From: a virus
IMG/VR virus record: IMGVR_UViG_3300042691_018004
Coordinates: 1-38,841 of that record
Direction: 5' to 3' (one strand)
DNA: 38,841 nucleotides
Shown in pieces: positions 782-38,748 of the stretch. The notes beneath the pieces were generated by a model that was not told the DNA's origin, did no database searches, and saw only the letters and a program-made list of their open reading frames with translations. Position numbers and translations under genes: made by a program. How positions within the stretch are numbered: the stretch's first letter is position 1; each line of letters begins with the position of its first letter.

Positions 782-1582
782 TCATGCCGACCGCACCTTG
801 CGCCGTGCGGCCTTCGCCTCGATCACCTGCGCCGGCGTGGCACCCTTGCCGTACTCCCAGCGCCTCACGATCGGCTCGGTCGGCAAGCACCGATGATGGC
901 CCTGGAAGGTCGCACACTGGTCGCACAGGCCGCGCACCCGGGCGATCGTCCCGGTGCGCCACGTCGAGCAGCACGAGCACTCCACGATCGCACGCTGCAC
1001 GGCGACGGGGCGATGGTCGCCTCTGCTGGCCCGCCAGATCTCCTCGCCCTTGAGCCGGAGCCATGCGGCCGACTCGGCGATGGTCGTCCGGGCGAGCAGC
1101 TCCAGATCGCCACCATCGCCGCCTATTTGCGCCGCTAAGCCGACGTGAGGCGCGATCCGGGCCAGACGGGCACCGATGAGGGCGACGGCGTCCTGGCGGC
1201 CTCTGAGCGCCTCGGTCGGATTCCAGGCGCCGATCCCGACGAGCGAGGCGACGAGGGCGTCGAGCTCTCGGGCCGCGGCGGTCATCTGCGCGAGGCAGGC
1301 GTCGATGGCGCCGACGGTGCCGTCAGCGTCGTCCAGGGCGTCAGGCTCGCCGGCGAGGGCGGCCTGGACGGTCGGATCGGCGTGGCCGCCAGCTCGGCCG
1401 CCGACGCGGGCCCGGATCGCCTGGAGGCATTCGTCGTTCGTGAGGTTGCGCTTGGAGAGCGCCCGGCCCTCGCCGAGCGACTCGGCGTAGATCCCGAGCA
1501 CCTGGTCTAGGGTGTGCGGGATCTGGAACCAGTCGAGGTCGGCGATGGCGGCGGCGATCGCCTGATCGGTCCGGTCGGTCAC
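782..1582 (-). CDS. hypothetical protein with C-terminal Cys cluster
   Basis: A 266-residue protein that I do not recognise. The first two thirds are alanine-rich and predicted helical. The C-terminal third contains CSCC, then CDQC and a later cysteine (about residues 203-232), arranged like a zinc ribbon, followed by a basic tail. It starts with GTG overlapping the stop of the primase-helicase gene as GTGA, so the two are translationally coupled. Position immediately after the primase-helicase suggests a replication accessory role, which is inference only. Confidence 0.75.
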   Translation of the reverse strand: MTDRTDQAIAAAIADLDWFQIPHTLDQVLGIYAESLGEGRALSKRNLTNDECLQAIRARVGGRAGGHADPTVQAALAGEPDALDDADGTVGAIDACLAQMTAAARELDALVASLVGIGAWNPTEALRGRQDAVALIGARLARIAPHVGLAAQIGGDGGDLELLARTTIAESAAWLRLKGEEIWRASRGDHRPVAVQRAIVECSCCSTWRTGTIARVRGLCDQCATFQGHHRCLPTEPIVRRWEYGKGATPAQVIEAKAARRKVRSA

Positions 1583-3852
1583 AAGTCCTCCATGAGCGCC
1601 TCGATGGCGCGCAGCTCGTCGTCGATGGGGCCGAGATCGGGGTCGAAGTTATCCACAGGCGGCGGGTCGGGGGCGCGGTCGTCGTTTTCTGGTGCTCCCT
1701 CGCCCTCGCTCCGCCGCGCCCCCTCCCGTAGGGAGAGGGGGCGCGGGGCGCGGTCTGTGACATCGCGCCCGGGGCGCGGTTGGGGCGCGGTGGGGCGCGG
1801 GGCGCGGTCTGGGTTATCCACAGGGTCGATTACGCTCTCCGTGGCATCGGCGCCACCATGCGTAACCGGGTCCTCGGCCTGCCGGTAGGGCTTCGCGACG
1901 ATGTAGGCGAATGCCTTCTGGGTGGGGTCGCGCTCGATCCAGCCCTCGTCCTCGAGCACGGTGCGGGCCGCCGCGATGGTCTCGTTCCTGCCCGTGAGGC
2001 GGCTCTGGATCTGGCGCGTGGAGAGGCCGGGATGGGCCTCCAGCAGCTTGCTGATCTGCTCCATGAGGATCGTCGGCCGGAAGGTGCCGTCCGGGTTGTG
2101 CGGCGTCTCGTCGGGCGCCGTGATGGTCACGCTGAGCCCCTCGGTGAGCGAGTGGGTCACATGCACCATGGCGGCCGTCGTGCCCATCGCCCGGGTCCCG
2201 TGGCGGTCCTTCGCCACGATCACCTTGAGGAGCCCGTCATCGGAGCGAGAGGGGACCTTCACGGCCTCTAGGCGGTAGCTGGCGCCGTCGATGGCCGCGG
2301 TCTTGCGCTGCGATCCGATCATGTAGCGGCTGGGGGCGTTCGGGTCCTTCGGGACGTGATCCACGATCAGCACGGCTGGGCCGCGGCGGGCGATCCACTT
2401 CGGGAAGGTCACGAACCAGCGCGCCACGTCGTCGTCGTCGTTGCCCTTCACGCCCGAGGCGGCCATCGCCTCGCCGGTGGAGTCGAGCACGACGAGCTCG
2501 GGCTGGTGCTCCTCGATGATCTGGGCCATCGCGACCCGGGCCACCGGACCCCACGAGGTTTGGGGCGAGAGGTAGATCAGCCCCTCGGTGATGGTATCCG
2601 CCGGGATACCGAGGGCGAGGAGCCGGGACGTGATGCCGTGGGCCGAGTCCTCGAGGTCGATGAGCACGACCTTCCCGCCGGCCAGGATCACCTCGACCAT
2701 CGCCGCGATCGCCACCCAGGTCTTGCCGGTGCCCGACTCGCCGAAGATCGCGTTACACCGGGAGGGGTAGAGGAGTGGGGGCTGGCCGGCCGGGGTGGCG
2801 ATGGTGGGCGCCGGTGGGGCGTAGTTGCCGCTCAGCACGTCCGAGAGGTCGACGGGCGCCCAGTCGCCGGGCTCGGCGGCCTCGGCCTCGCTCGCGGCCT
2901 CCTGGGTGCCTGTAGCGCCGCCGACGAGGTCTCGCACGTCCCAGCGCTCGCCGGCGAAGCCCTGGGCCTCGCACCAGCGCCTCGCAGCCGTGAAGTCGCC
3001 GCCGTGGCGCGTGAAGGCGATGTAGCCGAGCTTCGAGTAGGTCTCCTCGGCCCGGAGCGTCGGATGCGAGCTGGTGAACACCTTGAGCACGTCCGAGCCG
3101 CCATAGCCCACCGTGGCGCTCGGCCCTTCGCGCGGGTCCTTGCCGGGGCGCACCCATCGGTCCTCGCCTTCGGGGCCGGGGCGTAGCTTCGTCCAGCCGT
3201 CTGCGGCGAGGAGCGTGTCCCAGCTCGTGGCCGCGCTCCACTGGTCGCCTGGCCGGTCGGTGCGCTGGGTGGTGGGGCTGGTGCGCTCGCGGGTCTCGGG
3301 CTGGGCGGTGAGCAGCTCGAGGAGCCATGCCGGGGCGGCGGCGAGGTCCTCGGGCGAGCTCGCCTCCACCTCGTAGCGCCGGCCCGAGGCGTGGAGCGAC
3401 GGCGGGGCGACGACGAAGCCGCCTTCGCCTCGCACGTCCAGGCCGGGGCCGAGAGCACCCGAGGCGCTGTTGCGGATCGGCGTCCCGTCCCACCGGAAGT
3501 AGATGTGCCGCCCGCCGGACCCGGTGATCACCTCGAAGGTCTCGGGGAGCGGGCCGTAGCGCTCGACGAGCTCGGCCAGGGTCTCGTCGCCGGCCTTGCC
3601 GTCGGCCACGTCCACGTCGAGGACCCAGAGGCCCGAGGCGGCGCCGCAGACGATGCCGATGCCATGGTCGGGTGCTTCGGTCCACCAGTGGCGGATGCGC
3701 GCCTCGTCGGTGGTGCCCTCTCTCTGCCACGCGGTCACGGTCGGCACCTTGCGACCAGCGGGCACCGGGACGACCCGCCACCCGCGTCGGGCGTAGTGGA
3801 GGGCGTGCTCGAGGTTGCTGAGCTCGGGGGTGGCGGTCATGGCGGCGGTCAC
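1579..3852 (-). CDS. bifunctional primase-polymerase / replicative helicase (PrimPol + RecA-like ATPase)
   Basis: A 757-residue replication protein. Residues about 15-180 form a PrimPol (archaeo-eukaryotic primase) domain: LDVDV (D79, D81) supplies metal-binding acids, SGGRHIYF supplies the basic/His motif (H116), and GLDVRGEGGFVVAPPS is the third motif. A middle region leads to a RecA/RepA-like ATPase with Walker A GESGTGKT (about 372-379) and Walker B LVVLDS (about 455). A winged-helix-like segment (about 610-660) and a low-complexity DRAPRP-rich tail follow. It probably primes and unwinds DNA at the phage origin. The GTG start at 3852 overlaps the upstream stop as GTGA; an ATG four codons in is an alternative. 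No separate DNA polymerase is seen in the window, so the host replicase is presumably recruited. Confidence 0.9.
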   Translation of the reverse strand: MTAAMTATPELSNLEHALHYARRGWRVVPVPAGRKVPTVTAWQREGTTDEARIRHWWTEAPDHGIGIVCGAASGLWVLDVDVADGKAGDETLAELVERYGPLPETFEVITGSGGRHIYFRWDGTPIRNSASGALGPGLDVRGEGGFVVAPPSLHASGRRYEVEASSPEDLAAAPAWLLELLTAQPETRERTSPTTQRTDRPGDQWSAATSWDTLLAADGWTKLRPGPEGEDRWVRPGKDPREGPSATVGYGGSDVLKVFTSSHPTLRAEETYSKLGYIAFTRHGGDFTAARRWCEAQGFAGERWDVRDLVGGATGTQEAASEAEAAEPGDWAPVDLSDVLSGNYAPPAPTIATPAGQPPLLYPSRCNAIFGESGTGKTWVAIAAMVEVILAGGKVVLIDLEDSAHGITSRLLALGIPADTITEGLIYLSPQTSWGPVARVAMAQIIEEHQPELVVLDSTGEAMAASGVKGNDDDDVARWFVTFPKWIARRGPAVLIVDHVPKDPNAPSRYMIGSQRKTAAIDGASYRLEAVKVPSRSDDGLLKVIVAKDRHGTRAMGTTAAMVHVTHSLTEGLSVTITAPDETPHNPDGTFRPTILMEQISKLLEAHPGLSTRQIQSRLTGRNETIAAARTVLEDEGWIERDPTQKAFAYIVAKPYRQAEDPVTHGGADATESVIDPVDNPDRAPRPTAPQPRPGRDVTDRAPRPLSLREGARRSEGEGAPENDDRAPDPPPVDNFDPDLGPIDDELRAIEALMEDL
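1649..1822. other. candidate replication origin: two DnaA boxes and GGGCGCGG iterons
   Basis: Two exact TTATCCACA nonamers (1649-1657 and 1814-1822), identical to the consensus DnaA box, lie 165 bases apart. Seven direct copies of GGGCGCGG lie between them (starting at 1671, 1739, 1746, 1772, 1783, 1793 and 1800) plus one inverted copy (1714-1721). The array lies inside the low-complexity C-terminal coding region of the primase-helicase gene, where it encodes repeated DRAPRP and PVDN. I saw no other TTATCCACA in the window. Placing an origin within or beside the initiator/primase gene is common in phages and plasmids. The repeats could instead simply reflect a proline/arginine-rich linker. 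Confidence 0.5.
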
Positions 3853-5201: not shown

Positions 5202-5672
5202 CTAGAAGCCGCCGTCGTCGAGCAGGTCGCCGAGGTCGACGCCCGTGACCGGCCGGCGATACGACGCCTTGTAGAGCTTCGGGGCGTTGAAGCCGGCCTT
5301 CGTGCGCTCGCCGTCGCCCGAGTACTGGAGGGCGAGCGTGCCGCCTACCTCCAGCTTCTGAGCTCCAGCCGCCCGCACCGCGTCGGCCACGGCCTTCGAG
5401 GTGCTCGCGTACTTGTTGGAGCCCTTGAGGTACACGTTCCGGTGCCCGTCGTCGTCGCCGTCCTCGCGCTCGGAGGTGGCGAGCGTGACGACGACCTGCC
5501 ACATGGGGTTGCCGTCGTCCCAGGTCTTGGGGCGGCCGTCCAGGTCGGTCTGCTGCTTCGTCTGCACGTCGATGATCTCGCCGGCGACCTTGTCGCCGAT
5601 GGCCTCGAAGCGGGCCGACTTCGTGCCGCCCCCCATGAGGAGGGAGGAGGGGTCTGGAGGGGTCATGGTCAT
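5202..5672 (-). CDS. phage single-stranded DNA-binding-like protein
   Basis: A 156-residue protein resembling actinophage proteins annotated as SSB-like. It has an N-terminal LLMGGGTKSARFEAIGDKVAGEI, a central DGRPKTWDDGNPMWQVVVTL strand segment and a KAGFNAPKLYKASY segment, consistent with an OB-fold, and ends in an acidic LDDGGF-type tip such as SSBs use to recruit partners. ATG at 5672 overlaps the exonuclease stop as ATGA. The gene lies directly between exonuclease and nuclease genes, fitting a recombination/replication role. The identification comes from recall of family features rather than a diagnostic motif. Confidence 0.7.
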   Translation of the reverse strand: MTMTPPDPSSLLMGGGTKSARFEAIGDKVAGEIIDVQTKQQTDLDGRPKTWDDGNPMWQVVVTLATSEREDGDDDGHRNVYLKGSNKYASTSKAVADAVRAAGAQKLEVGGTLALQYSGDGERTKAGFNAPKLYKASYRRPVTGVDLGDLLDDGGF

Positions 5673-7420
5673 GGTTTGCTTTGCTCCTGTGTTGGTAGGG
5701 GTGCGGTGAGGGCGAGCGCTTTGGCGCCCACCTCTCCCGCGGTGTGGTCGTCGGTCCCGAAGGCGACGGCCACCTCAGCCAGGCGTCGGGCCTGGTCGAT
5801 TGTGAGGGCGCCGAGGAGGGCGCCGGTCTCCCAGCCGGGCGATGGGTCCTCGTCGGTGACGAGGGCGAGCGCTGCGCGCACGAGCAGGTCGGTGTCGCCG
5901 TCGTCGCCGTCGTGGACGTGCTGGAGGCAGGCAAGGGCGGCCTGGAAGATGGCGAGCTTCCGGGGTGTGAGCTCCTTCGCTGCGACCGCCCAGTGGCGCC
6001 CGCCGATCCGGCCGCCGCGCACCCATGAGGCGGCGATCTCTTTCGGCGCGGCGTCGAGGGCGCTCCAGCCGGCCTTGACGGCCTCCCTCGCCTCGGAGTC
6101 GATGGGGCCGTCGCCTTCGTCGGGCTCCCACGCCCGGGGCGGATCACCCAGCTCGACGCGCCCGAGGTCGACGGGCACGGTCGGCGGGAACTCGGGCTCG
6201 AGGCCGGCGGCCACCTCCAGGGTGGCGAGCACCTCGTGGAGCTCGGCCATCTGGGCGGCCGTCCACGAGGTGCGCTGCTTCGAGTCCATGCCCGAGGGCC
6301 AGCGACGGGCGAGGGCCAGGCCGTCACCATGCTTGGACACGGCCCGCACCCGGTCCACGAACCAGGCGCGCATCGCCTCGGGGTCGGCGTTGTCGATCCA
6401 GTCGAGGTCGGTGCGGGCGGCGTCAGCAGCAGCCTGAAACGCTGCGGTGGAGTCGGTGGCGCCCGTTGGGTCGGCTCCGAAGTCCACGGGATTGACGAAG
6501 GCGGCGGTCTGCTCGGGCTCGGCGTCGAAGAGCGAGGGCGGCGCCTCCACCGCCGTGAACATGGCGGCCACGTTGCGCACCTTGCGGCGTTCCCGCACCT
6601 GGGCGGCGAGGTCCACCAGCCCGTGGTCGAGGGTCACGGCCAGCAGCTCGCAGGTGCCCGAGCCGGCGGGCACGTGGGCGATGTAGGCCACGCTCGGGTC
6701 GATGGCCGGGAGGGGCGCCCAGCCGTCGTCGGTCCATCGGTGGGTAGCGCCCGAGTAGGCGGCGAGCTGGCAGGCGTAACCGATCCGCTGCGCCGACGAC
6801 CCCGTCTTGATGTCCACGATCCGCAGCTCGTCGCCCCACGGGCCGCGCACCAGCAGGTCGGCGGTGCCGCAGAGGCCGTCGCCGACGGGCACCCAAAGGA
6901 CGGCCTCGGTCATCACGGGCTCGAGCTGGTGGGCGGCGATCATGGCGGCGTAGGCGTCCACGTCGGCGTCCCAGGGGGCAGGGGGCCGGATGCCGGTCCC
7001 GGTCAGGTGGTGCTCGCAGGCGAGGTGGATCGCGGTCCCGATGTCGGCCTTGAGCTTCTCGCCGGCGTCGTGGAGGGCTCGGCCGATCACCTTGTCGGCC
7101 GCGGCGTTGTCGCCGGGCTCCACCTCGGAGAGATGATCGCGGTGGAGGTTCAGCCCATGGGCCAGGAGCCGGTGGCGCCACCGGACCAGCCCCTCGCCGT
7201 CGTCGAGCGCCTCGCAGAAGGTCGTCACCCGGGTCCGGGCCTTCGCCTTGCCGCCGTCGGGGTCGGGCGCCGAGTAGCGGGAGCCGTCCTTCGTCATCCC
7301 GGGGTGCGGCGTGCTGATCGAATTGGCGGCGGCCCACTCCAGCAGGGCACGCTCGGAGTCGGTGGCGCAGGCCGGGATCGGGTCGGCGCCCATGAGCAGC
7401 GCGTTCGCGTCGGGGATCAT
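5669..7420 (-). CDS. Cas4/RecB-like PD-(D/E)XK exonuclease
   Basis: A 583-residue exonuclease. Residues about 115-225 carry the RecB/Cas4 nuclease signature: GTAIHLACEHH (H132), GTADLLV (D187), IVDIKTG (D203, K205) and QLAAYS (Q218). A C-terminal helical region of about 240 residues follows. Such enzymes process DNA ends for recombination-dependent replication and pair with the SSB-like protein encoded just downstream. Residues 313-333 contain DFGADPTG...AAFQAAAD, a leader motif of pectate-lyase-type tail spikes, also present in this phage's own tail spike; this is odd for a nuclease. Codons there (TTT, GCT GCT GCT) have less GC at third positions than surrounding DNA. ATG 7420 overlaps the upstream stop as ATGA. 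Confidence 0.85.
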   Translation of the reverse strand: MIPDANALLMGADPIPACATDSERALLEWAAANSISTPHPGMTKDGSRYSAPDPDGGKAKARTRVTTFCEALDDGEGLVRWRHRLLAHGLNLHRDHLSEVEPGDNAAADKVIGRALHDAGEKLKADIGTAIHLACEHHLTGTGIRPPAPWDADVDAYAAMIAAHQLEPVMTEAVLWVPVGDGLCGTADLLVRGPWGDELRIVDIKTGSSAQRIGYACQLAAYSGATHRWTDDGWAPLPAIDPSVAYIAHVPAGSGTCELLAVTLDHGLVDLAAQVRERRKVRNVAAMFTAVEAPPSLFDAEPEQTAAFVNPVDFGADPTGATDSTAAFQAAADAARTDLDWIDNADPEAMRAWFVDRVRAVSKHGDGLALARRWPSGMDSKQRTSWTAAQMAELHEVLATLEVAAGLEPEFPPTVPVDLGRVELGDPPRAWEPDEGDGPIDSEAREAVKAGWSALDAAPKEIAASWVRGGRIGGRHWAVAAKELTPRKLAIFQAALACLQHVHDGDDGDTDLLVRAALALVTDEDPSPGWETGALLGALTIDQARRLAEVAVAFGTDDHTAGEVGAKALALTAPLPTQEQSKP

Positions 7421-7914
7421 GCGCTCACCTCTTTCGCCCATGCCCGCGCTCGGTGGAGGTCGGCGAGGTAGATCCCGTGGCGGTCGATGTAGAGGCGCCC
7501 GTCGCGGTGCAGCCGGTTCACGTGCTTCGAGACCGTGTCGCGTGCCAGGCCGAGCTCGGCGGCGAGAGCGGTGATGGTGCCGTTCCATGCGCCGAAGGTC
7601 CCGAGGTGGTCGAGGATGATCTTCTCGGGGTTGGGGCGCACAGGCTGGCCGGCGCGCCGTGCCCAGTAGCGGCGGCGGCGATGCTCGCGCTCGCGCTCGA
7701 CCTCGTCCATGCCGCCCCAGATCCCCTCTGGCTCGCGGTTGGCGATGGCGTGGTCGAGGCACGCCTGGCGCACCGGGCAGGCGGCGCAGATGGCGCGGGC
7801 GGCGGCCGTCTTGCGCCGGTTCGTCGGGTAGAACAGCTCGGGCGACTTCGTCCGGCAGGCGGCCTCGAGGCGCCAGTCGGTCGGCTCAGGCCGCGGGGTC
7901 TCGCTTCCAGCCAT
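7417..7914 (-). CDS. WhiB-family iron-sulfur regulator fused to a winged helix
   Basis: A 165-residue protein. The WhiB domain (about residues 12-80) has the four cluster-binding cysteines C20, C43, C46 and C52 (C-x22-C-x2-C-x5-C) and a GIWGG turn at 64-68. It is followed not by the usual short basic tail but by a winged-helix domain (about 97-160): ILDHLGTFGAWNGTITALAAELG, then ARDTVSKHVNRLHRDGRLYI, ending with a basic region. Host WhiB proteins bind the main sigma factor and redirect transcription; phage copies can interfere with host WhiB control. The added DNA-binding domain suggests promoter-specific action. ATG 7914 overlaps the PhoX stop as TGATG. Confidence 0.88.
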   Translation of the reverse strand: MAGSETPRPEPTDWRLEAACRTKSPELFYPTNRRKTAAARAICAACPVRQACLDHAIANREPEGIWGGMDEVEREREHRRRRYWARRAGQPVRPNPEKIILDHLGTFGAWNGTITALAAELGLARDTVSKHVNRLHRDGRLYIDRHGIYLADLHRARAWAKEVSA

Positions 7915-8969
7915 CACGAGATCCACGGTCCCGTCACCATGAACGTCTCGCCGGGCGATCGCTGCGAGGAGAACATCAGGTGCCGACCGTTGGGCGAGAA
8001 GGCCGGGCCGGTCATCTCGGAGCCGGCCACGTCGTAGCGGACCACGGGCGTCGTCGCCCCCGTCGTGAGGTTGACGCCGACGATCTCCATGTTGCCGCCG
8101 TCCTCGGCGACGAAGGCGCTCGTCGTGGTCGCTACGAGATTGTCGACGCCGGTGAGGTGCCGGGGCGTCGGCGAGCTGGAGTCGTCGTAGGCGATGTCGA
8201 GCACCATCGTCGCGATGTCGTAGCGCCAGACCCGCCCGTCGCCCTTCGTGGTGAACAGCACCAGATCCTCGGCGACGAAGATCCCCTCGCCACCGTTGAA
8301 GCGCCGGGCGTCGGCGACTTGGTAGCGGGTCGGCGTCACGGTCGCCTCGGGGTCGGGCACCATGGCCCAGCCGCCCGAGGTGGTGAGGACTCGCAGCGTC
8401 CCGGTGTCGAGGTGGTAGCGGTAGAGGCATCCATCGGACACGTCCTCGGTCTGGTACACAACGTTCGTGGCGACGTGGTGGGCGATGGCCTCGCGGTTCC
8501 AGCGCCCCCAGGGGAGCGGCGTGGCGGCGTCCAGCCCTTGCGGGTCGCAGAGCCACGCCCGGCCGCGCTCGATCTCCTCGCAGCTCACCCAGGCGCCCCG
8601 GTACGCGCCGCCCGCACAGTTGCGGGACGTGCCCGAGAGGAGCCGCCACGCGGCGATGGTGGCGCCGTCGGCGTCGAACACGATCGAGGAGGCGCCGCCC
8701 TGCCCTGAGCTCGCCTCGCTGTTGGACACGTAGACCCAGGCGCCGTCGCGGGCGTCGAAGGTGGCGCCGCCGTCGGGGTGGCCGTGCCAGGTGTAGCTGG
8801 TGCCCGGGACGGTCTGCCATGAGGTGGCGACCTTGCGGGCCGTGAAGCCCTGCGGGACCCAGAGCCCGGGGACCGACGAGGCGACGAGTGCGCCGTAGTC
8901 GGTGCGGGTCGGGATGCACCCGGCGAGGGCCACCGCCGCGGTGCCAGCCAGGAAGGTGCGGCGGTTCAT
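7914..8969 (-). CDS. secreted PhoX/DUF839-family phosphatase-like lipoprotein
   Basis: A 351-residue exported protein. The N-terminus MNRRTFLAGTAAVALAGC has a twin-arginine-like RR, a hydrophobic stretch and a lipobox (ALAGC), so it is probably a Tat-exported lipoprotein. The mature part resembles PhoX/DUF839 beta-propeller phosphatases: WVSCEE matches the conserved Cys-Glu-Glu metal site, with DGCLYRY, GGEGIFVAED and VDNLVATTTSAFVAEDGG as blade motifs. PhoX enzymes release phosphate from organic esters outside the cell. The ATG at 8969 overlaps the upstream stop (ATGA) and the stop touches the WhiB start (TGATG), so it belongs to the early operon. A phage phosphate-scavenging gene is plausible; catalytic activity is unproven. 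Confidence 0.82.
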   Translation of the reverse strand: MNRRTFLAGTAAVALAGCIPTRTDYGALVASSVPGLWVPQGFTARKVATSWQTVPGTSYTWHGHPDGGATFDARDGAWVYVSNSEASSGQGGASSIVFDADGATIAAWRLLSGTSRNCAGGAYRGAWVSCEEIERGRAWLCDPQGLDAATPLPWGRWNREAIAHHVATNVVYQTEDVSDGCLYRYHLDTGTLRVLTTSGGWAMVPDPEATVTPTRYQVADARRFNGGEGIFVAEDLVLFTTKGDGRVWRYDIATMVLDIAYDDSSSPTPRHLTGVDNLVATTTSAFVAEDGGNMEIVGVNLTTGATTPVVRYDVAGSEMTGPAFSPNGRHLMFSSQRSPGETFMVTGPWIS

Positions 8970-9172
8970 CGTTCGCCCCGTTCCCACGCCGCGCACACGG
9001 CGTCGATCCAATCGGACGCGTGGTCAAACAAGTTGGCGTCCATGCTGAAACCGCCGACATCGCGCATGTCGGTTGCGATCAGCCGCATGGTCTCGGTCGG
9101 CGGGCGATCCTCCATGAGTGCCCGCAGCGAGGTGGCGTGCAGCTCCCTCGCTCGGTCGTGATCCACTGCCAT
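8966..9172 (-). CDS. small hypothetical protein
   Basis: A 68-residue protein with no recognised domain, helical and mildly acidic. The ATG at 9172 was chosen because AAGGA lies 6 bases upstream; an ATG one codon earlier would overlap the preceding stop as ATGA. It is coupled to the PhoX gene by a 4-base overlap. The tight spacing supports its reality. Confidence 0.6.
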   Translation of the reverse strand: MAVDHDRARELHATSLRALMEDRPPTETMRLIATDMRDVGGFSMDANLFDHASDWIDAVCAAWERGER

Positions 9173-9285
9173 CATCTGTCCTTCCGGTGTTGGGCGAGCG
9201 CCTTTCGCCACGCCTCGCAGGCCTCGCAGCCGCACCCGGCCCGGGCTGCACGGGCGCAATGGTCCGCGGCAGGGTGCGCGGTCAT
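9172..9285 (-). CDS. 37-residue cysteine-rich miniprotein
   Basis: A 37-residue open frame that fills an otherwise empty gap. It starts with ATG overlapping the previous stop (ATGA at 9282-9285) and ends with TGA overlapping the next ATG. The sequence has C10 followed by CGCEAC (C18, C20, C23), a zinc-knuckle-like spacing, then a basic helix AWRKALAQHRKDR. Function unknown. Perfect coupling on both sides argues that it is translated. Confidence 0.55.
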   Translation of the reverse strand: MTAHPAADHCARAARAGCGCEACEAWRKALAQHRKDR

Positions 9286-9524
9286 CGCCGCGCCCGCCAG
9301 AACGAAACCCGATCAGCGGGCCGCACCTCAGGGCTGCGGAACCCGGGCAAATCGGCCAGGCGGCACGTACCGGCCACGGCATCACCCGGCGACACGGTGT
9401 GCCCGCAATCGCGGCACACACCATCACTGTTCGGATCGTGCAGCAGCAGCGCCGCACAAAGCCCCGGCCGCGGCGCCACCCACTGACGCAACAACTCAAG
9501 AGTGGCAGTAGTCGTGTCACCCAC
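9282..9524 (-). CDS. small hypothetical zinc-binding-like protein
   Basis: An 80-residue protein starting with GTG. Its first 11 residues (VGDTTTATLEL) match the start of the upstream XF1762-family protein, including the way the start codon overlaps the previous stop by 8 bases. The rest has C23, then CRDCGH (C37, C40) and C54, a possible zinc ribbon: cysteines of SDGVCRDCGHTVSPGD resemble short zinc-finger proteins of actinophages. Function unknown. The shared N-terminus looks like a recombination or duplication joint. Confidence 0.6.
   Translation of the reverse strand: MGDTTTATLELLRQWVAPRPGLCAALLLHDPNSDGVCRDCGHTVSPGDAVAGTCRLADLPGFRSPEVRPADRVSFWRARR
9492..9524 (-). repeat. duplicated gene-start module, copy A
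   Basis: A 32-base direct repeat of 9985-10016 (29 of 32 identical; the three differences are silent changes in third codon positions). It covers the start codon, the overlapping stop of the previous gene and the first 11 codons. The copies are 493 bases apart. Confidence 0.85.
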
Positions 9525-10017
9525 GATGGCCGACCCAACGGACCCAACGGTCCTTGTCGCCTGCGGGCTTGCGCTCGTTTCCGAACAGGTCAACGTGTTC
9601 ACGACCCAGGCGCGATTCCCACCCGTTTACTGGTGGCGATACGCGGGCATCCAAGGTGAACCCAGCTGCTCGCAGCGACGAACCCGGTTCGGTCTCAAGC
9701 GTGTACGTGATGACCCGCCGATACCCGAGTGCCCCCGCCGCCCGACAGATGGCGCCGTAGAGCATCGAATTCGCGTTCTTGGCGCCTTGCGTGCAGGTGC
9801 GGGTCACTTCAAGAGTGCGGCCGTCGTCCATATGTCGGGACACGGGGCGAGACGCGATAGCGACGCCGAGCAGGACGCCTGACCCGTCAGTTACGCCAAC
9901 GCCCCACTTCCACCCGACCGGAGGCAGATTGTGGCGGTGATGCTGGGCGACGAACCGGCGAGCCTCTGCGAGTGTCACGGGCACCAACTCGAGGGTGGCG
10001 GTAGTCGTGTCACCCAT
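9517..10017 (-). CDS. XF1762-family protein
   Basis: A 166-residue protein of the XF1762 family common in phages and mobile elements. It contains VTLAEARRFVAQHHRHNLPPVGWKW, then VGVAIASRPVSRHMDDG, LEVTRTCTQG, ANSMLYGAICRAAGALGYRRVITYT and SLRAAGF. The layout resembles a GNAT acetyltransferase fold, but the family's reaction is not established to my knowledge. The ATG at 10017 overlaps the resolvase stop by 8 bases (ATGGGTGA). The N-terminal GDTTTATLEL precedes the usual family start and is copied at the next gene. Confidence 0.82.
   Translation of the reverse strand: MGDTTTATLELVPVTLAEARRFVAQHHRHNLPPVGWKWGVGVTDGSGVLLGVAIASRPVSRHMDDGRTLEVTRTCTQGAKNANSMLYGAICRAAGALGYRRVITYTLETEPGSSLRAAGFTLDARVSPPVNGWESRLGREHVDLFGNERKPAGDKDRWVRWVGHRG
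9985..10017 (-). repeat. duplicated gene-start module, copy B
   Basis: Partner of the repeat at 9492-9524. It spans the end of the resolvase gene and the first 11 codons of the XF1762-family gene. Confidence 0.85.
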
Positions 10018-10471
10018 CAGCCATCGCCCCGTACCGTGCGATGAGCGCCGCCTCTGCCCTGCCGTCGTCCTTGACCCGTGCGAACCATGACGCCTGCGCC
10101 GGCCACAGCTCCACGGCCCTCTGTCGGGACGTGTTCTTGTCGGCGGTGACCCGCTGCGCCCGCTTCCATCCGGCGGCGCTGATGTGATGCACGGGCACGC
10201 CGAGCGCGCCGAGCGCGCCCAGGATCGCCCCGTAGTTCTCGGCGAAGGTCCAGCCGCCGCGCTGGCCGGGCATGTAGCCCACCTTCTCCACCCACGCCTC
10301 GCAGATCGTGAAGGGCTTCCAGTCCTCCAGCAGCGCAGCGATGGAGGCGCCGAGTGCGGCGCCGGTGGCCGGTGGCATGTCCTCCACGGCGACAAGGGCC
10401 ATCGTCCCGGTCTCGATGATGGCGAGTGCGCCGTTCTTGCCCGGGTCCACGCCCAGGAGCCACTCGCTCAC
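10010..10471 (-). CDS. RuvC-like Holliday junction resolvase
   Basis: A 153-residue protein of the phage RuvC-like group. GVDPGKNGA carries the first catalytic aspartate (D9) with the Gly-rich strand-turn, WVEKVG supplies a glutamate (E62), and DDGRAEAALIARYG near the C-terminus supplies the final acids (D135, D136, E140). It resolves branched DNA before packaging. The length is typical of phage versions. The GTG start overlaps the upstream stop as GTGA, and the stop overlaps the XF1762-family start. Confidence 0.87.
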   Translation of the reverse strand: MSEWLLGVDPGKNGALAIIETGTMALVAVEDMPPATGAALGASIAALLEDWKPFTICEAWVEKVGYMPGQRGGWTFAENYGAILGALGALGVPVHHISAAGWKRAQRVTADKNTSRQRAVELWPAQASWFARVKDDGRAEAALIARYGAMADG

Positions 10472-10581
10472 AGCTCGTCCTGCCAGAGCGCCCAGATGAG
10501 GGCGGCGACGCAGACGACGATGATCGCGGCGGCCAGGGCCGCGGCGGCGTAGACGCCGGGGTTCGTGATGGCGGCGCTCAC
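10468..10581 (-). CDS. 37-residue single-span membrane protein
   Basis: A 37-residue protein starting with GTG, with one hydrophobic segment (about residues 10-32: VYAAAALAAAIIVVCVAALIW) and a short acidic C-terminus. GTGA overlaps at both its start and stop. Function unknown. Small early membrane proteins of temperate phages can act in superinfection exclusion or host modulation, which is only inference here. Confidence 0.65.
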   Translation of the reverse strand: MSAAITNPGVYAAAALAAAIIVVCVAALIWALWQDEL

Positions 10582-10811
10582 GACGCGGCCTTCGGGCGGG
10601 TCATGACGAACCGGGCGCGGGTCTCGTGGTCTTGCTGCGCCTTCGCCCGGCGCACCTTGTGGAGCCACTCCAGGGCGAGCGACTCCTGCGCGTCGAGGTC
10701 GCGGTCGATGGTTACGAAGCCGATGCGACAGACCCAGTCGCCGCCGGGGTGCTGGGTGATCGTGATGTCGCCCGGTTCGGGCCAGATGGAGACGTGGGTC
10801 TGTGCGTCCAC
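10578..10811 (-). CDS. hypothetical early protein
   Basis: A 77-residue protein with a beta-rich N-terminal half (VSIWPEPGDITITQ, DWVCRIGFVTI) and a charged helical C-terminal half. It resembles no domain I can name. The start is a GTG at 10811 with AAAGGA about 9 bases upstream. It is the first gene after a 209-base non-coding structured stretch, so it may begin a transcription unit covering the resolvase and replication genes. It ends in KAAS, encoded by a sequence that recurs at two other gene ends (11301 and 11501). Confidence 0.65.
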   Translation of the reverse strand: MDAQTHVSIWPEPGDITITQHPGGDWVCRIGFVTIDRDLDAQESLALEWLHKVRRAKAQQDHETRARFVMTRPKAAS

Positions 10812-11020
10812 GGGGTGCTGTCCTTTCGTCGTGGGTCGGTGGGGTCGGGCCGGTACCGAGGGGAGCGATGCCGGTGGCCGACCCCACCTGGTCGCCCCGC
10901 CTGCTTGCCTCGGAGCGCCTCCCCGGCGGGGATGGTGGGGTGGTGCTCAGACGAGGTGCAGGCGGGGCGGCCGGATGATGCCGACCGTCGCTTCGGTCGA
11001 TCAGATGACGGCGGAATGGA
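10812..11020 (-). other. structured non-coding region with two long inverted repeats
   Basis: No gene is seen. Two perfect long inverted repeats lie side by side: GGTGGGGTCGG (10838-10848) with CCGACCCCACC (10878-10888), and CGCCCCGCCTGC (10893-10904) with GCAGGCGGGGCG (10958-10969), the second enclosing a small inner hairpin CCCC/GGGG. A smaller one (GACCG/CGGTC) lies near 10983-10999. This looks like a transcribed structured element: a terminator pair, an attenuator or a structured RNA upstream of the replication genes. No promoter could be pinned down. Confidence 0.5.
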
Positions 11021-11140
11021 TCAGGGCGGGTCCTTGCGGTCTCGCAGATGGTCGAGGCCGCAGAGGGCGGCGGCGATGACGAGGCAGATCCCGACGACGT
11101 AGATCCCGATGGCGGGGAGCAGGGTCCAGAGGCCGTTCAT
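11021..11140 (-). CDS. 39-residue single-span membrane protein
   Basis: A 39-residue open frame with one membrane segment (about residues 4-29: LWTLLPAIGIYVVGICLVIA and following) and a charged tail LDHLRDRKDPP. The ATG at 11140 overlaps the upstream stop as ATGA. Function unknown. It is one of several tiny membrane proteins near the lysogeny switch. Confidence 0.55.
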   Translation of the reverse strand: MNGLWTLLPAIGIYVVGICLVIAAALCGLDHLRDRKDPP

Positions 11141-11301
11141 GGCCGGATCTCCATCACCAGGGCGATGAGGCCGAGCCAGGCGGCGCCCACGCCGGACACG
11201 AACAGGAAGTCGTGGAAGAGCCAGCGGCCTCGGGTCGTCGGCTCGTGGTGCGCAGAGGCCACGATGGCGAGCACGCCGGCGGTCATGACGAGCAGGGCCA
11301 T
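11137..11301 (-). CDS. 54-residue two-span membrane protein
   Basis: A 54-residue protein with two hydrophobic segments (about residues 2-17 and 33-51) separated by a charged loop HHEPTTRGRWLFHD. ATG 11301 touches the previous stop as TGATG, and its stop overlaps the next ATG. Longer upstream readings of this frame run through another gene and are not supported. Function unknown; possibly superinfection exclusion or another host-membrane effect. Confidence 0.6.
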   Translation of the reverse strand: MALLVMTAGVLAIVASAHHEPTTRGRWLFHDFLFVSGVGAAWLGLIALVMEIRP

Positions 11302-11322
11302 CACGATGCGGCCTCGGTGGTC
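11298..11322 (-). repeat. duplicated gene-end module, copy 1
   Basis: A 25-base direct repeat of 11498-11522, 24 of 25 identical and exactly 200 bases apart. It encodes the final residues TTEAAS, the stop and the start of the next gene. A 14-base part (TCACGACGCGGCCT on the plus strand) recurs at 10578-10591. Confidence 0.85.
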
Positions 11323-11504
11323 AAGCGGAGCCTTGCCGCGCACTCCCCAGCCGTGGATGGGGCCTTGTGTCCGTGATGACCACACTCCACTTCCGTGCCG
11401 CCGAACACCGCCACGCCTAGCCAGGTGGTGCGCGTGTGCCGTCCATGGCTTTCCCAACAAACGGGGCGAGCAAGGATGCGATCAGGCCTCTGCGCCACCA
11501 TCAC
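11301..11504 (-). CDS. small hypothetical Cys/His protein
   Basis: A 67-residue protein (GTG start at 11504 overlapping the previous stop as GTGA; ATG one codon later is equally possible). It has scattered Cys and His residues (CWESHGRH, ECGHHGH, GEC) that could bind a metal. It ends in LTTEAAS, nearly the same as the C-terminus of the upstream HTH protein. Its codon usage is less clear than in its neighbours, so its reality rests mainly on the coupled overlaps. Function unknown. Confidence 0.45.
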   Translation of the reverse strand: MMVAQRPDRILARPVCWESHGRHTRTTWLGVAVFGGTEVECGHHGHKAPSTAGECAARLRLTTEAAS

Positions 11505-11522
11505 GACGCGGCCTCGGTGGTC
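11498..11522 (-). repeat. duplicated gene-end module, copy 2
   Basis: Partner of the repeat at 11298-11322. It covers the C-terminal TTEAAS codons of the HTH gene, its stop codon and the first bases of the next gene. Confidence 0.85.
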
Positions 11523-11686
11523 GTGGCGGCGTCGACGTCGTCGGGGTGGAACAGCATCGCCCCGGTGCGGCCGGGGAGCTGCACCGTTGGGGCGATGCGC
11601 CCCGAGGCGATCCAGCGGGTGAGGGTGCGGCGGGTGATCCCGGCACGCTCCGCGGCCTGGGTCGCCGTGAGTAGGTGGAAGGTCAT
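11501..11686 (-). CDS. excisionase/Cro-like HTH protein
   Basis: A 61-residue protein with a MerR/excisionase-type HTH: LLTATQAAERAGITRRTLTRWI, then SGRIAPT and a wing AMLFHPDDVD. It is transcribed divergently from the XRE repressor, the position of a Cro or excisionase in the lysis-lysogeny switch. No ribosome site precedes ATG 11686, and the predicted -10 (11695-11700) lies so close that the transcript may start almost at the ATG, i.e. a leaderless mRNA, which is common in actinobacteria. As the first gene of the early operon it would be directly controlled by the repressor. Confidence 0.82.
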   Translation of the reverse strand: MTFHLLTATQAAERAGITRRTLTRWIASGRIAPTVQLPGRTGAMLFHPDDVDAATTTEAAS

Positions 11687-11834
11687 AGCTAGGGACTATG
11701 GGCTAGCCCCTACCTTGGGTCAAGACCCAAACTTATGATGCTATCCATCTGTAGCGGGTGGTCCGAATGGCCCCGTTGCGCTACCCCTACCGTGTGTCCA
11801 TACTTAGGGTCCACCTAGCAACGGAGGCTCCCCC
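11687..11834. promoter_or_regulatory. divergent lysis-lysogeny control region
   Basis: This 148-base region lies between the HTH gene and the repressor. It holds a perfect palindrome TTGGGTC-AA-GACCCAA (11715-11730), an inverted pair GCTAG...CTAGC (11688-11707), and a 15-base direct near-repeat CCCCTACCTTGGGTC / CCCCTACCGTGTGTC (11707-11721 and 11784-11798, 13 of 15 identical). Minus-strand promoter: TTGACC (11720-11725), 17-18 bases, CATAGT (11695-11700). Plus-strand promoter: TTGCGC (11776-11781), 17 bases, CATACT (11799-11804). Each near-repeat copy falls in one promoter spacer, so a repressor bound there could control both directions. GGAGG (11823-11827) is the repressor gene's ribosome site. 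Confidence 0.6.
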
Positions 11835-12122
11835 ATGAGCACCACACTCCACATCCCCACCTTCACCATCGCCGACCGCCTGCGGAAGGCCCGAGAGGAC
11901 GCGGGCCTCAAGCAGCACCAGCTAGCCGACCTGCTCGAGGTCGATGCCAACACGGTCAGCAACTACGAGAACGGCAACACGAAGCGGCACCAGCGCATCA
12001 CCTTGACCCGCTGGGCGCTCGTGACCGGGGTCCCGGTGGAGTGGATCAAGACCGGCGAAATCCCGGGTGACGTGCAGAAACCGCCTACCATTTGGATGGC
12101 GACCACCCTCGCAGCAGCTTGA
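11835..12122 (+). CDS. XRE-family immunity repressor (CI-like)
   Basis: A 95-residue repressor with a canonical XRE/Cro-CI helix-turn-helix at about residues 12-66: IADRLRKAREDAGLKQHQLADLL, EVDANTVSNYENG and ITLTRWALVTGVPVEWI. It has no cleavable LexA-like C-terminal domain, so induction must work another way. The protein ends in ATTLAAA, similar to ssrA-type degradation tags that end in LAA. ATG 11835 has GGAGG 7-8 bases upstream. The gene is followed by the integrase on the same strand and divergent from a Cro/excisionase-like gene, the layout of phages with integration-dependent immunity. Assignment as the lysogeny repressor is strong; the tag function is inferred. Confidence 0.88.
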   Translation: MSTTLHIPTFTIADRLRKAREDAGLKQHQLADLLEVDANTVSNYENGNTKRHQRITLTRWALVTGVPVEWIKTGEIPGDVQKPPTIWMATTLAAA

Positions 12123-12126
12123 CCCG

Positions 12127-12211
12127 GTGAACACTGTTCGCGCTATCTTCACCGCCACTCGGAGCGGCGGGTGGCCGCTCCACGGCAGAGAGGGAGCAGC
12201 AAAGTGTTCAC
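12127..12211 (+). promoter_or_regulatory. inverted repeat pair around the integrase start
   Basis: GTGAACACT (12127-12135) and its exact reverse complement AGTGTTCAC (12203-12211) flank the integrase start region. The first overlaps a smaller palindrome GAACA-C-TGTTC (12129-12139). These may be binding sites for the repressor, excisionase or integrase arm domain, or part of the attP region. There is no direct evidence for which. Confidence 0.4.
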
Positions 12212-13073
12212 GTTGACACGCCACGTCCTCGACTACATGGCGTCCAGACGGGCCGCCGGCGTCTACGGGCAGAAATCGCAACGGGTCGTAGCCCCAAGGC
12301 TGCACGACTTCGCACGCTCACACGGCAACCGGCCCATCCACCACGTCAACACACAGACAGTCGAACGATGGCTGGCCGAGCTCGATCACCGTGGCGTCGC
12401 CCGCAACACGAAAGCGTGTTACCTCGTCAGCGTCCGGGCCTTCTGTGCGTGGATGGTGGACCGCGGGCACCTCGCAGCGAACCCGTGCGACGGCGTGCCA
12501 CCGATCCGCAGGGACCGGCCCGTGCCCCGGGCGCAGTCCACGGCCAACGTCGCCAAGATCATCGACGCCTGCACCGACGACCGCGAACGGGCGATCGTCT
12601 GGCTCATGGTCGGCTGCGGCCTGCGCCGCATGGAAGTGGCCGGGCTCCGCTGGGAGCACTGGGACGACCGGGCCGGGATCATCGAGGTGCGCCACTCCAA
12701 GTTTGGGCGGGAGCGGGTGCTGCCGGTACCCGATGAGGTGGCCGCCGTGCTCGGCCGCCTGCGTGGTGGTGGGATGACGGGGCCGATCATCGAGTCGAAG
12801 CGCGACCCGCACCAGGCGATCAGCGTCGAGCACGTCGGCCGCGTGGTGCGCCGCGTGATGGAGCGGGCCGGGGTCAAGCACCGCCCCTACGACGGGGTGA
12901 GCGGCCACGCCCTGCGCCACACGTGCGCCAGCGACGTACTCGACCGCTCCCACGATCTGCGAGTCGTCCAGGCGATGCTCGGCCACCAGTCGCTCCAGGC
13001 GTCGTCGGTGTACCTGCGGCGTGCCACGCCCGAGCAACTCCGCGAGGCGATGGCCGGGCGCACCTACGCATAG
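12171..13073 (+). CDS. int: tyrosine-family integrase
   Basis: A 300-residue tyrosine recombinase (289 if the GTG at 12204, which has AGGGAG 7 bases upstream, is the true start; the GTG at 12171 has GGAG 6 bases upstream). An N-terminal SAM-like core-binding domain (about 15-105) is followed by the catalytic domain with GLRRMEV (R152), HSKFGRERVLPV (K177), HALRHTC (H246, R249), LGHQS (H272) and VYLRR (nucleophile Y281). It inserts the phage into the host chromosome. It is co-oriented with the repressor 48 bases upstream and likely cotranscribed with it. No attP core or tRNA fragment could be recognised nearby. Confidence 0.95.
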   Translation: MAAPRQRGSSKVFTLTRHVLDYMASRRAAGVYGQKSQRVVAPRLHDFARSHGNRPIHHVNTQTVERWLAELDHRGVARNTKACYLVSVRAFCAWMVDRGHLAANPCDGVPPIRRDRPVPRAQSTANVAKIIDACTDDRERAIVWLMVGCGLRRMEVAGLRWEHWDDRAGIIEVRHSKFGRERVLPVPDEVAAVLGRLRGGGMTGPIIESKRDPHQAISVEHVGRVVRRVMERAGVKHRPYDGVSGHALRHTCASDVLDRSHDLRVVQAMLGHQSLQASSVYLRRATPEQLREAMAGRTYA

Positions 13074-36662: not shown

Positions 36663-38300
36663 TCAGACGAACACGGAGGGCGCAGCGGGTAGGGATCGGG
36701 CGCCTGCCGCGATCGCGTCGCCGCGGGCCTCCCAGGAGATGCACCCGGCGGCGGCGGCGTCGATCTTGAGGGCCGAGTGCGGGGTCTCTTTCTGGACGCC
36801 CCACATGCGGCGGTGGTTGTCATCGAACACGTTGACGAGGCGGCGCTTCGCGTTGCCGATGTGCGCCGCGAAGCGGGGGTCGCCGTTGTGGGTGACATCG
36901 CCCGAGGTCATCGCCTGCCGGTAGGAGCGCAGGGCGTAGGCCATCGGCTTGGGGCGGTTCGTCGTCCACGAGACGACCCGGGAGCCCCACCGGCCAGCCC
37001 AGAGGTCCACGAGATGGTCGATATACTGAGGGTCGATGTAGGCACGCCAGACCTGATAGGTGCCCCAGAGATCGACCATGGCGGCGTCGATGTCGGCCAT
37101 GGGGTGCTCGTAGAGCTCGTCGGCGTCGGCCGGTCGCTCCCAGATCCCGACGGGCCACTGGAATCCGGTATCCACCTCAGTGGCGATGATCGCGACGGCG
37201 TCGTCGTAGCGGGCGCCGTCCACGCCGGCCACGACCAGGGCGCCCTGGTCGGGCATGTAGTCGGGGCGGTGCAGCCGACGCCACCGCTCCACGTCGAAGG
37301 CTGAGTCCTCTGCCGATCGGATGCGATTGCCGAAGAAGCGCTCGGCCTGGGCGGGGTCCAGCTCGAGGAGCTCGGCCGCCTCGGCCTCGATGGCGTCGAG
37401 GTCGACCCACCAGCTATCGCCGTAGACGTGGCGGTGGATCTTCGCCCGCTCCTTCTTGTTTCGGTAGCGCAGGTGCGGCGGGGCGAGGCGGTGGTCCCGG
37501 TAGAGGTCGTCGGCCTTCGACTCGGCGGTGCGCTGCGCCACCGAGCCCTCGGCGGGGTCCCAGCCGTTCGTGGTCTCCACGGCGCGCCCGCCCATGCCGG
37601 CGAGGCCGCGGCGCTGGGTCTCAGCGACCTTCACCATGCCCGACTGCGGGGTCCATAGGCCGGTCTCGTCCTGGGGGACGAAGGTCACGCGGGCACCGAG
37701 CCGGGATCGGGCGTTGCTGGTGACGATGTCGATGCGCCCGGCGCCCGGGAGGCGGATGAACTCCTCGCCGGTCTTGGGGATCACCTCGGTGAGCGGGCCG
37801 CGCTCGATCATCGGGCGCAGGGCGCCGTAGATGTTGTCGGTCTGCTCCTCGCTCGTCGCCGTGATCTGGATGAGCGGCGTCGGCCAGGGCATCCCCATGG
37901 GCTCGCCGGGCTCGTACTGGTAGAGCCAGCCGCAGCCGCAGCCGTGGTCTCTGCAGTCCCACCGCTCGCCGCCGGCCGCCCAGCCTGCGAACAGCGCGGG
38001 CCCGACGCCCTCGAGGCAGATCATCGCCGCCGTGAGCGGTCCCTTCCCCCACTTCTGGGGGCGCACCAGTTGCGACCGCCGGTAGTAGAAGGCGGGGGCG
38101 AGCTGGCCGACCTGCGCCGTGGGCTTGAGGCGGTAGTGGTGAACGAGGAAGTTGAGCTGCTCGTTCGTGAGCACGTAGGGCTCGCCCATGTGGAAGCCGT
38201 CGGGGATCACACAGTGGCGCTCGATCCAGTCGACGGCCAGCCATCCCAGGCTCGGGAACTCTCCGGGGTAGGACGGGCCGCGCCAGCTAGGCGTCGGCAT
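36663..38300 (-). CDS. terL: terminase large subunit
   Basis: A 545-residue packaging motor. The ATPase domain has a Walker A-like RPQKWGKGPLTAA (about 80-92), TATSEEQTDN, and a Walker B-like VTFVPQDETGLW. A Cys cluster CRDHGCGCGW (about 115-125) is an insert usual in actinophage versions. The nuclease domain has VVAGVDGARYDDAVAIIAT (first Asp), YIDPQYIDHLVDLW and a C-terminal DAAAAGCISWEAR acidic motif. It cuts and pumps DNA into the head. The start overlaps the small subunit gene by 14 bases. Confidence 0.94.
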   Translation of the reverse strand: MPTPSWRGPSYPGEFPSLGWLAVDWIERHCVIPDGFHMGEPYVLTNEQLNFLVHHYRLKPTAQVGQLAPAFYYRRSQLVRPQKWGKGPLTAAMICLEGVGPALFAGWAAGGERWDCRDHGCGCGWLYQYEPGEPMGMPWPTPLIQITATSEEQTDNIYGALRPMIERGPLTEVIPKTGEEFIRLPGAGRIDIVTSNARSRLGARVTFVPQDETGLWTPQSGMVKVAETQRRGLAGMGGRAVETTNGWDPAEGSVAQRTAESKADDLYRDHRLAPPHLRYRNKKERAKIHRHVYGDSWWVDLDAIEAEAAELLELDPAQAERFFGNRIRSAEDSAFDVERWRRLHRPDYMPDQGALVVAGVDGARYDDAVAIIATEVDTGFQWPVGIWERPADADELYEHPMADIDAAMVDLWGTYQVWRAYIDPQYIDHLVDLWAGRWGSRVVSWTTNRPKPMAYALRSYRQAMTSGDVTHNGDPRFAAHIGNAKRRLVNVFDDNHRRMWGVQKETPHSALKIDAAAAGCISWEARGDAIAAGARSLPAAPSVFV

Positions 38301-38748
38301 CGTCGGCCACGACCCTCAGCCGACTGCGGGACGACGAGGCCGACGCCGCGGTCTGCACCGGGCCGGCCTCTGCGGCAGGGTCGCCGATCTTCCACTTGAG
38401 CGAGAGCATCCCTGGCACCGAGATCCCGAGCGCGTCGTTCTGCTGGCGCACCCAGGTGGACACGGCGACAGACGATCCGGGCACCTCGGCCTCGGCGAAG
38501 CGCCGAACGTACAGGGCGACCTGATGCTCGAGGTGCAGGCGCTCCCACATGACGGCCTGGGGGAGCCGCCAGTGCCAGGCCCAGAGCTCGGCCTCGCGGT
38601 CAGACTGCGATCCGAGCGGCCACGATGGCGGGTCACCCGGGCGGCCCTCGTGGGGGAGGGTCGTCCAGTCGCCGTGGTCGCGAGATCGTCGGAGTGCGTT
38701 GGGGTCCGGCGGTGGGCCGGATCGGACCCTTGCGCCACCTTGTGCCAT
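38287..38748 (-). CDS. terS: terminase small subunit
   Basis: A 153-residue protein directly upstream of terL. It has a Pro-rich N-terminus, a helical core (LWAWHWRLPQAVMWERLHLEHQVALYVRRFAEAE), then VSTWVRQQNDALGISVPGMLSLKWKI, the usual actinophage small terminase pattern, and a Ser/Arg-rich tail. It recognises the packaging site. The ATG at 38748 has GGAGG 5-6 bases upstream. Confidence 0.87.
   Translation of the reverse strand: MAQGGARVRSGPPPDPNALRRSRDHGDWTTLPHEGRPGDPPSWPLGSQSDREAELWAWHWRLPQAVMWERLHLEHQVALYVRRFAEAEVPGSSVAVSTWVRQQNDALGISVPGMLSLKWKIGDPAAEAGPVQTAASASSSRSRLRVVADDADA

Follow-up and report, generated by a model that had tools for sequence, protein, structure and literature searches.

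A compact PhoX-like, Tat-type lipoprotein gene in a temperate actinophage's early operon

The classical PhoX phosphatase of Pseudomonas fluorescens (PDB 3zwu, 4a9v, 4alf and 4amf) is a Tat-exported enzyme in which a thiolate serves as a ligand to iron (PMC4223295), with D292 and R385 as active-site residues; the position of Arg385 is occupied by Lys in the active Psip1 (PMC11098088). The phage protein described here has the positions of Cys179, E273, D292 and E387 in common with this enzyme (PMC4223295), and a putative Tat signal would give it the same route of export. Phages carry other phosphate genes, namely pstS and phoA in cyanophages and phoD and ppa in soil phages (PMC10987575), and there, as here, an exported phosphatase is a possible auxiliary gene; the folds of PhoD and PhoA are, however, unrelated to that of PhoX. 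The parts of the soil-phage study available to us report phage phoD, ppa and other phosphate genes, whereas phoX is mentioned there solely among the phosphatase genes of bacteria (PMC10987575), and our literature search recovered no description of a phage phoX. Ltp-like exclusion lipoproteins, which are expressed from prophages and block DNA entry, share only the lipoprotein signal with the phage protein, whose operon position argues against prophage expression.

Its full-length bacterial homologues are compact PhoX-like Tat proteins of about 385 aa, common in actinobacteria and present in some proteobacteria (Streptomyces, Micromonospora, Actinomadura, Nitrosomonas and others). With these, as exemplified by the Streptomyces netropsis version, it shares an alignment over the full length at about 50% identity, a predicted six-bladed propeller, nine ligand-type residues and the RR signal. 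Another parallel is offered by PhoX-like proteins of Pseudonocardia plasmids, which, like the phage protein, are encoded in the operon of a mobile element; they are only 33-36% identical to the phage protein, are longer, lack the lipobox and are encoded beside a conjugation coupling-protein gene. In the two plasmid records (L005:2995-4437 and L006:3190-4719), the gene lies in what is probably a conjugation operon; a gene with a TraM-recognition domain follows it directly, and C40 peptidase and J-domain genes are nearby.

The gene, its export signal and its operon

The window (positions 1 to 38,841 of IMG/VR virus record IMGVR_UViG_3300042691_018004, 38,841 nucleotides) codes for a TerL, portal, capsid, tape measure, repressor and integrase. 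The phage terminase has relatives in isolated actinophages, the closest, at 55%, being that of Streptomyces phage Kromp. The gene at the small-terminase position (38287-38748) matches phrog_226, a family labelled minor tail protein, probably in error.

The preliminary description had assigned a PhoX/DUF839-type product to the gene, and a Pfam search with the 351-aa protein confirmed this (PF05787 at 38.9 bits, above the cut-off of 24; E 7.9e-10); PD40 was matched as well, and a PHROGs search returned no convincing family match. The reading frame is intact over 351 codons, and its GC3 (0.946) and codon usage resemble those of the phage core genes. Full-length homologues at about 50% identity, a structural model with a pLDDT of 90 and the phage-like codon use and GC3 together mark it as more than a chance ORF. 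We rejected the plus-strand ORFs that overlie the gene, since both the homology and the intact reading belong to the minus strand; the large one among them (7659-8708) looks like a high-GC shadow. An assembly chimera was likewise rejected, given the overlapping codons at both junctions and codon use that matches the phage. The observation of a PhoX-like gene in a virus window thus holds.

The N-terminus, MNRRTFLAGTAAVALAGC, contains a twin arginine (RRTFLAG) followed by a lipobox that fits the pattern applied here ([LVI][ASTVI][GAS]C after a hydrophobic stretch). The residues of the Tat-like lipoprotein signal (RR, ALAGC) reported earlier are present, and the Pfam TAT_signal match (21.6 bits) falls slightly below its cut-off of 22.7. 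An RR-hydrophobic motif occurs near the start of 82 of 83 bacterial relatives, and a lipobox-like motif in just one of the 83, which suggests that the lipid anchor was gained, or uniquely kept, by the phage version.

Table 1. Positions of the PhoX-like gene, its motifs and neighbouring phage features in the window; residue numbers refer to the phage protein.
Feature	Position	Strand	Remarks
Compact-type PhoX-like (PF05787) Tat lipoprotein gene	7914..8969	minus	351 aa; ATG 8969, stop 7914-7916
Tat-type lipoprotein signal peptide (predicted)	8919..8969	minus	residues 1-17, RR at 3-4; AlphaFold model disordered at 1-20
Lipobox LAGC (motif)	8916..8927	minus	residues 15-18; predicted lipidated Cys18
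NCAGG	8607..8621	minus	residues 117-121; Cys118 corresponds to Cys179 of P. fluorescens PhoX
CEE	8574..8582	minus	residues 130-132; altered TPW loop just before (Y123 R124, Trp deleted)
RE	8490..8495	minus	residues 159-160; E160 aligns with PhoX E273; Arg replaces a His invariant in 81/81 relatives
ED	8442..8447	minus	residues 175-176; D176 aligns with PhoX D292
GGEG	8283..8294	minus	residues 226-229; E228 at the place of the DRPEW Glu (E387) in classical PhoX
D276 (GVDN)	8142..8144	minus	aligns with SPDG of classical PhoX
D290 (AEDGG)	8100..8102	minus	aligns with QTDG of classical PhoX
E318 (SEMTGP)	8016..8018	minus	aligns with E[IV]TG of classical PhoX
Prim-Pol primase-polymerase with AAA_25 ATPase	1579..3852	minus	same operon
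PD-(D/E)XK exonuclease	5669..7420	minus	same operon
WhiB-like regulator with C-terminal winged-helix-like extension	7417..7914	minus	start overlaps PhoX stop
69-aa ORF upstream of PhoX	8966..9175	minus	stop overlaps PhoX start (ATGA)
RuvC-like Holliday junction resolvase	10010..10471	minus	same operon
Excisionase/MerR-like gene	11501..11686	minus	first of early operon
Putative early promoter (promoter-like site)	11695..11723	minus	directly before excisionase-like gene, divergent from repressor
Phage repressor	11835..12122	plus	divergent from early operon
Tyrosine integrase	12171..13073	plus	

Direct reading bore out the coupling by short overlaps on both sides that the preliminary description had reported: the stop of the upstream ORF and the PhoX start overlap as ATGA (8966-8969), and the PhoX stop and the WhiB start overlap as TGATG (7912-7916), with a GTG at 7917 as an alternative WhiB start. 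The gene was likewise correctly placed as a member of a replication operon rather than a chance insertion, being coupled within a set of replication and recombination genes (Table 1) that also holds a Mom-like gene and an endonuclease. We found no convincing insertion-scar repeats around it. Several neighbours have features of their own. The extension of the WhiB-like protein gives weak winged-helix matches (HTH_24, Crp-like), suggesting an apparent WhiB and wHTH fusion, and the exonuclease has a long C-terminal part past its nuclease domain, where residues 299-345 show a weak pectate-lyase/tail-spike-like match. The Mom-like DNA-modification gene, with a GC3 of 0.72, far under that of the rest, is flanked by a 36-nt direct repeat (89%; 9488-9523 and 9981-10016) and has the appearance of a recent insertion, one that left a second copy of the 5' end of the following gene. 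The early operon also contains a 25-nt direct repeat (96%; 11298-11322 and 11498-11522), one copy of which lies where the excisionase-like gene ends.

A scan for sigma-70-like promoters across 7300-12300 returned one promoter-like site against 0.2 expected, about 2.7 kb upstream of the PhoX gene. No second site was found in this stretch, although a promoter of another kind could be hidden from such a scan, and no terminator-like site was found there on the operon strand. Its position in the operon, the lone promoter-like site facing away from the repressor and the lack of a terminator-like site make early lytic expression the best reading for the PhoX gene.

Ligand positions, divergence and predicted fold

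A profile of the compact family retrieves the crystal sequences of P. fluorescens PhoX (E about 5e-21 and 2e-21), and in hhalign the compact and classical profiles match across 359 columns (99% probability, E 5e-20, 23% profile identity). Nine acidic or Cys positions are common to the compact and classical forms, and all nine are kept in the phage protein: E85, C118, E132, E160, D176, E228, D276, D290 and E318. At the sequence level, this agrees with the earlier claim that metal-ligand-type residues, the CEE motif among them, are retained. Cys179, E273 and E387, which we take to be metal ligands of PhoX, carry numbers consistent with the crystal-chain numbering in the profile match. The classical chain, however, has about 590 aa as against 351 in the phage, and its Arg385 and conserved His (272) are without phage equivalents. 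The former, the Arg of DRPEW, has no counterpart across the compact family, the phage included, with Gly at the aligned position; K242 or R246 of the phage protein might substitute for it.

The bacterial homologues that align over the full length are about 43-54% identical to the phage protein, the best reaching about 50-54%. Among the matches listed in a scan of genome contigs, relatives at E<=1e-10 were counted in 23 of 396 actinobacterial genomes, none above 54% identity. We therefore rejected a recent transfer from a known host, as no relative above about 54% was seen in any of the sequences searched, these genomes included. The phage sequence forms the longest branch of a quick tree, between the actinobacterial and proteobacterial clades, a tentative placement. 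Genes adjoining the bacterial homologues (Lon protease, VTT protein, P450, Nudix and GDSL lipase) offered no functional hint. As for close relatives of the phage protein in viruses, none was found in INPHARED, and none in IMG/VR by pattern scans limited to a few peptide words.

To gauge this divergence, we took as frozen the 87 columns that are invariant across 79 compact homologues, with the phage left out. The phage copy keeps 73 of these despite about 50% overall divergence and changes 14, as against five or fewer broken by any single relative in a leave-one-out count that included similarly long branches. The changes include P124R, E140L, F157W, H159R, D165H and the deletion of the Trp next to P124, all at positions that are invariant in the Pseudonocardia forms too, and they flank the NCAGG/CEE and HE segments in sequence. 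In the TPW-G-T loop before CEE, which is invariant or nearly so in 81 relatives, TPW has given way to YR. The phage copy thus departs from the compact bacterial proteins in its lipobox, the 14 changed positions, the lost Trp and altered pre-CEE loop, and the Arg in place of His before E160. Conserved Cys, acidic and His columns are kept in 16 of 19 cases, no better than other conserved columns (59/72 and 32/35), so the comparison does not point to selection on catalysis in particular.

Structure prediction against PhoX, envisaged in the preliminary description, gave a divided result. AlphaFold yielded confident propellers for both the phage protein (pLDDT 90) and a Streptomyces homologue (pLDDT 91). 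In Foldseek searches, the Streptomyces model found PhoX at rank 1 (E 7.7e-17, TMq 0.71), whereas the top 50 for the phage model consisted of generic propellers without any PhoX crystal structure, a weaker structural match to PhoX than that of its compact homologue; a fold search among viral models also returned generic propellers only. Taken with the changed frozen residues, this indicates that the phage protein keeps the ligand positions while their surroundings have moved away from PhoX.

PhoX genes in other viral records

The gene is not part of a conserved core of related phages: none of 45 records with the same terminase carries PhoX. We found no PhoX in genuine isolate-phage records of INPHARED. 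The two PhoX hits in that collection, CAKLQH020000005.1 and CAKLQF020000005.1, were rejected as phage precedents, as both records, filed as Acinetobacter phage MD-2021a, look like mislabelled Acinetobacter chromosome contigs; the stretch read in the former has tatABC, lgt, thyA and two phoX genes, all bacterial chromosomal genes.

A scan of IMG/VR for classical PhoX recovered 20 records, 15 of which (L189-L203) are aquatic contigs of up to 138 kb with a Tat-lipoprotein PhoX. All 11 lipoprotein-type records tested have a pstS homologue, as against none of the five others tested; in L190 (7965-11327) and L203 (7980-11249) this homologue lies directly downstream of phoX. Terminase genes were found in four of the 11. 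We found no published description of this association, which is apparently a phage phosphate-scavenging cassette. The aquatic proteins resemble the phage protein in being virus-borne members of the PhoX family with a Tat signal and lipobox (LAGC, IAGC or LASC). They differ in being classical 740-aa versions with DRPEW, in their association with pstS and in their low GC, and represent a separate acquisition. Lipid-anchored PhoX has arisen in phages at least twice, once together with a phosphate transporter gene. These two origins support a phosphate-related reading in general, without proving it for the compact phage gene.

The remark in the preliminary description that a DUF839/PhoX lipoprotein is unfamiliar from replication operons of temperate actinophages stands in so far as no PhoX was found among isolate actinophages; PhoX in phages as such is not novel, given the 15 aquatic contigs.

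Possible functions of the phage protein

The reading that we favour, tentatively and at slightly less than an even chance, is that during infection the phage protein still works as a phosphoesterase on the cell surface, using an Fe/Ca-type centre with an altered substrate pocket. From the homology, lipoprotein signal, retained ligand positions and operon position, which are established at the level of sequence, we infer lipidation, metal binding and loading, catalysis, a substrate and a benefit to the phage, as follows. A compact PhoX gene would have been taken long ago from a bacterial lineage, or from an unsampled donor, and would have become a translationally coupled member of the early lytic operon. 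Its propeller would pass through the host Tat system in the folded state and be tethered by the lipid anchor to the external side of the membrane, where it would bind its metals and cleave the phosphoester. Host transporters could then take up the released phosphate for phage DNA synthesis.

Three lines of evidence favour this phosphoesterase reading: first, the PF05787 score, the profile matches to PhoX, the complete set of ligand-type positions and the propeller model; second, the intact frame, phage-like codon use, coupling at both ends and single promoter-like site; third, the aquatic virus contigs with PhoX Tat lipoproteins and pstS. It is weakened by the changed frozen columns, several of them near the active site, by the absence of PhoX from the top Foldseek matches of the phage model and by the unexceptional retention of Cys, acidic and His columns. 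Also counting against it, neither pstS nor another phosphate gene was found among those scanned for in the window, and we found no phosphatase assay of any compact PhoX.

Its main rival, somewhat doubtful in our estimate, is that the PhoX-like propeller was repurposed as a surface lipoprotein that has no hydrolytic activity or acts in another way, e.g., one that blocks or alters a receptor and so excludes other phages during infection. Such a role is suggested by the lipid anchor that 82 of 83 bacterial relatives lack, the changes in an otherwise frozen pocket, the structural drift of the model from PhoX and the lack of accompanying phosphate genes, and Ltp-type surface-exposed phage lipoproteins are known to act in superinfection exclusion (PMC3952083). 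Against repurposing stand the nine retained ligand-type residues and the lipid-anchored PhoX of large aquatic phages, found there with pstS. The gene also occupies an early lytic position rather than one expected to be expressed in lysogeny, and exclusion proteins are usually expressed from prophages. A more specific proposal, which we consider unlikely, is that a compact PhoX was remade into an anchored surface protein that acts on a new substrate or has a role other than hydrolysis. It might, for example, keep rival phages out during lytic growth by removing phosphate from a phosphorylated wall polymer or by masking that polymer, and its metal centre would be used unlike that of any bacterial homologue.

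It is distinctly improbable that the gene is merely tolerated host cargo under weakened selection, decaying towards loss and without present function. Its occurrence in one record alone (absent from the same-terminase records, from INPHARED and from IMG/VR by the few-word pattern scans) and its long branch would fit decay, but the intact frame, confident fold, large share of frozen positions kept at such divergence, overlapping starts and stops at both ends and fully adapted codon use do not. Least likely of all, and very improbable, is the suggestion of the preliminary description that the gene helps lysogens gather phosphate: although the phage is temperate, with a repressor and integrase, and the family is one of exported phosphatases, the gene lies deep in an operon reading away from the repressor, with neither a promoter-like site of its own in the sigma-70-like scan nor a separating terminator.

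Should the protein lack phosphatase activity, it would clearly exemplify a nutrient enzyme that a phage has adapted as a tool at the surface. Should it be active, then, within the searches made here, no compact-type PhoX would have been seen in a phage before, nor any PhoX in the early operon of an actinophage. The phosphate-scavenging genes of phages (pstS, phoA and phoD) would in that case take in a further enzyme family and reach into temperate phages of high GC.
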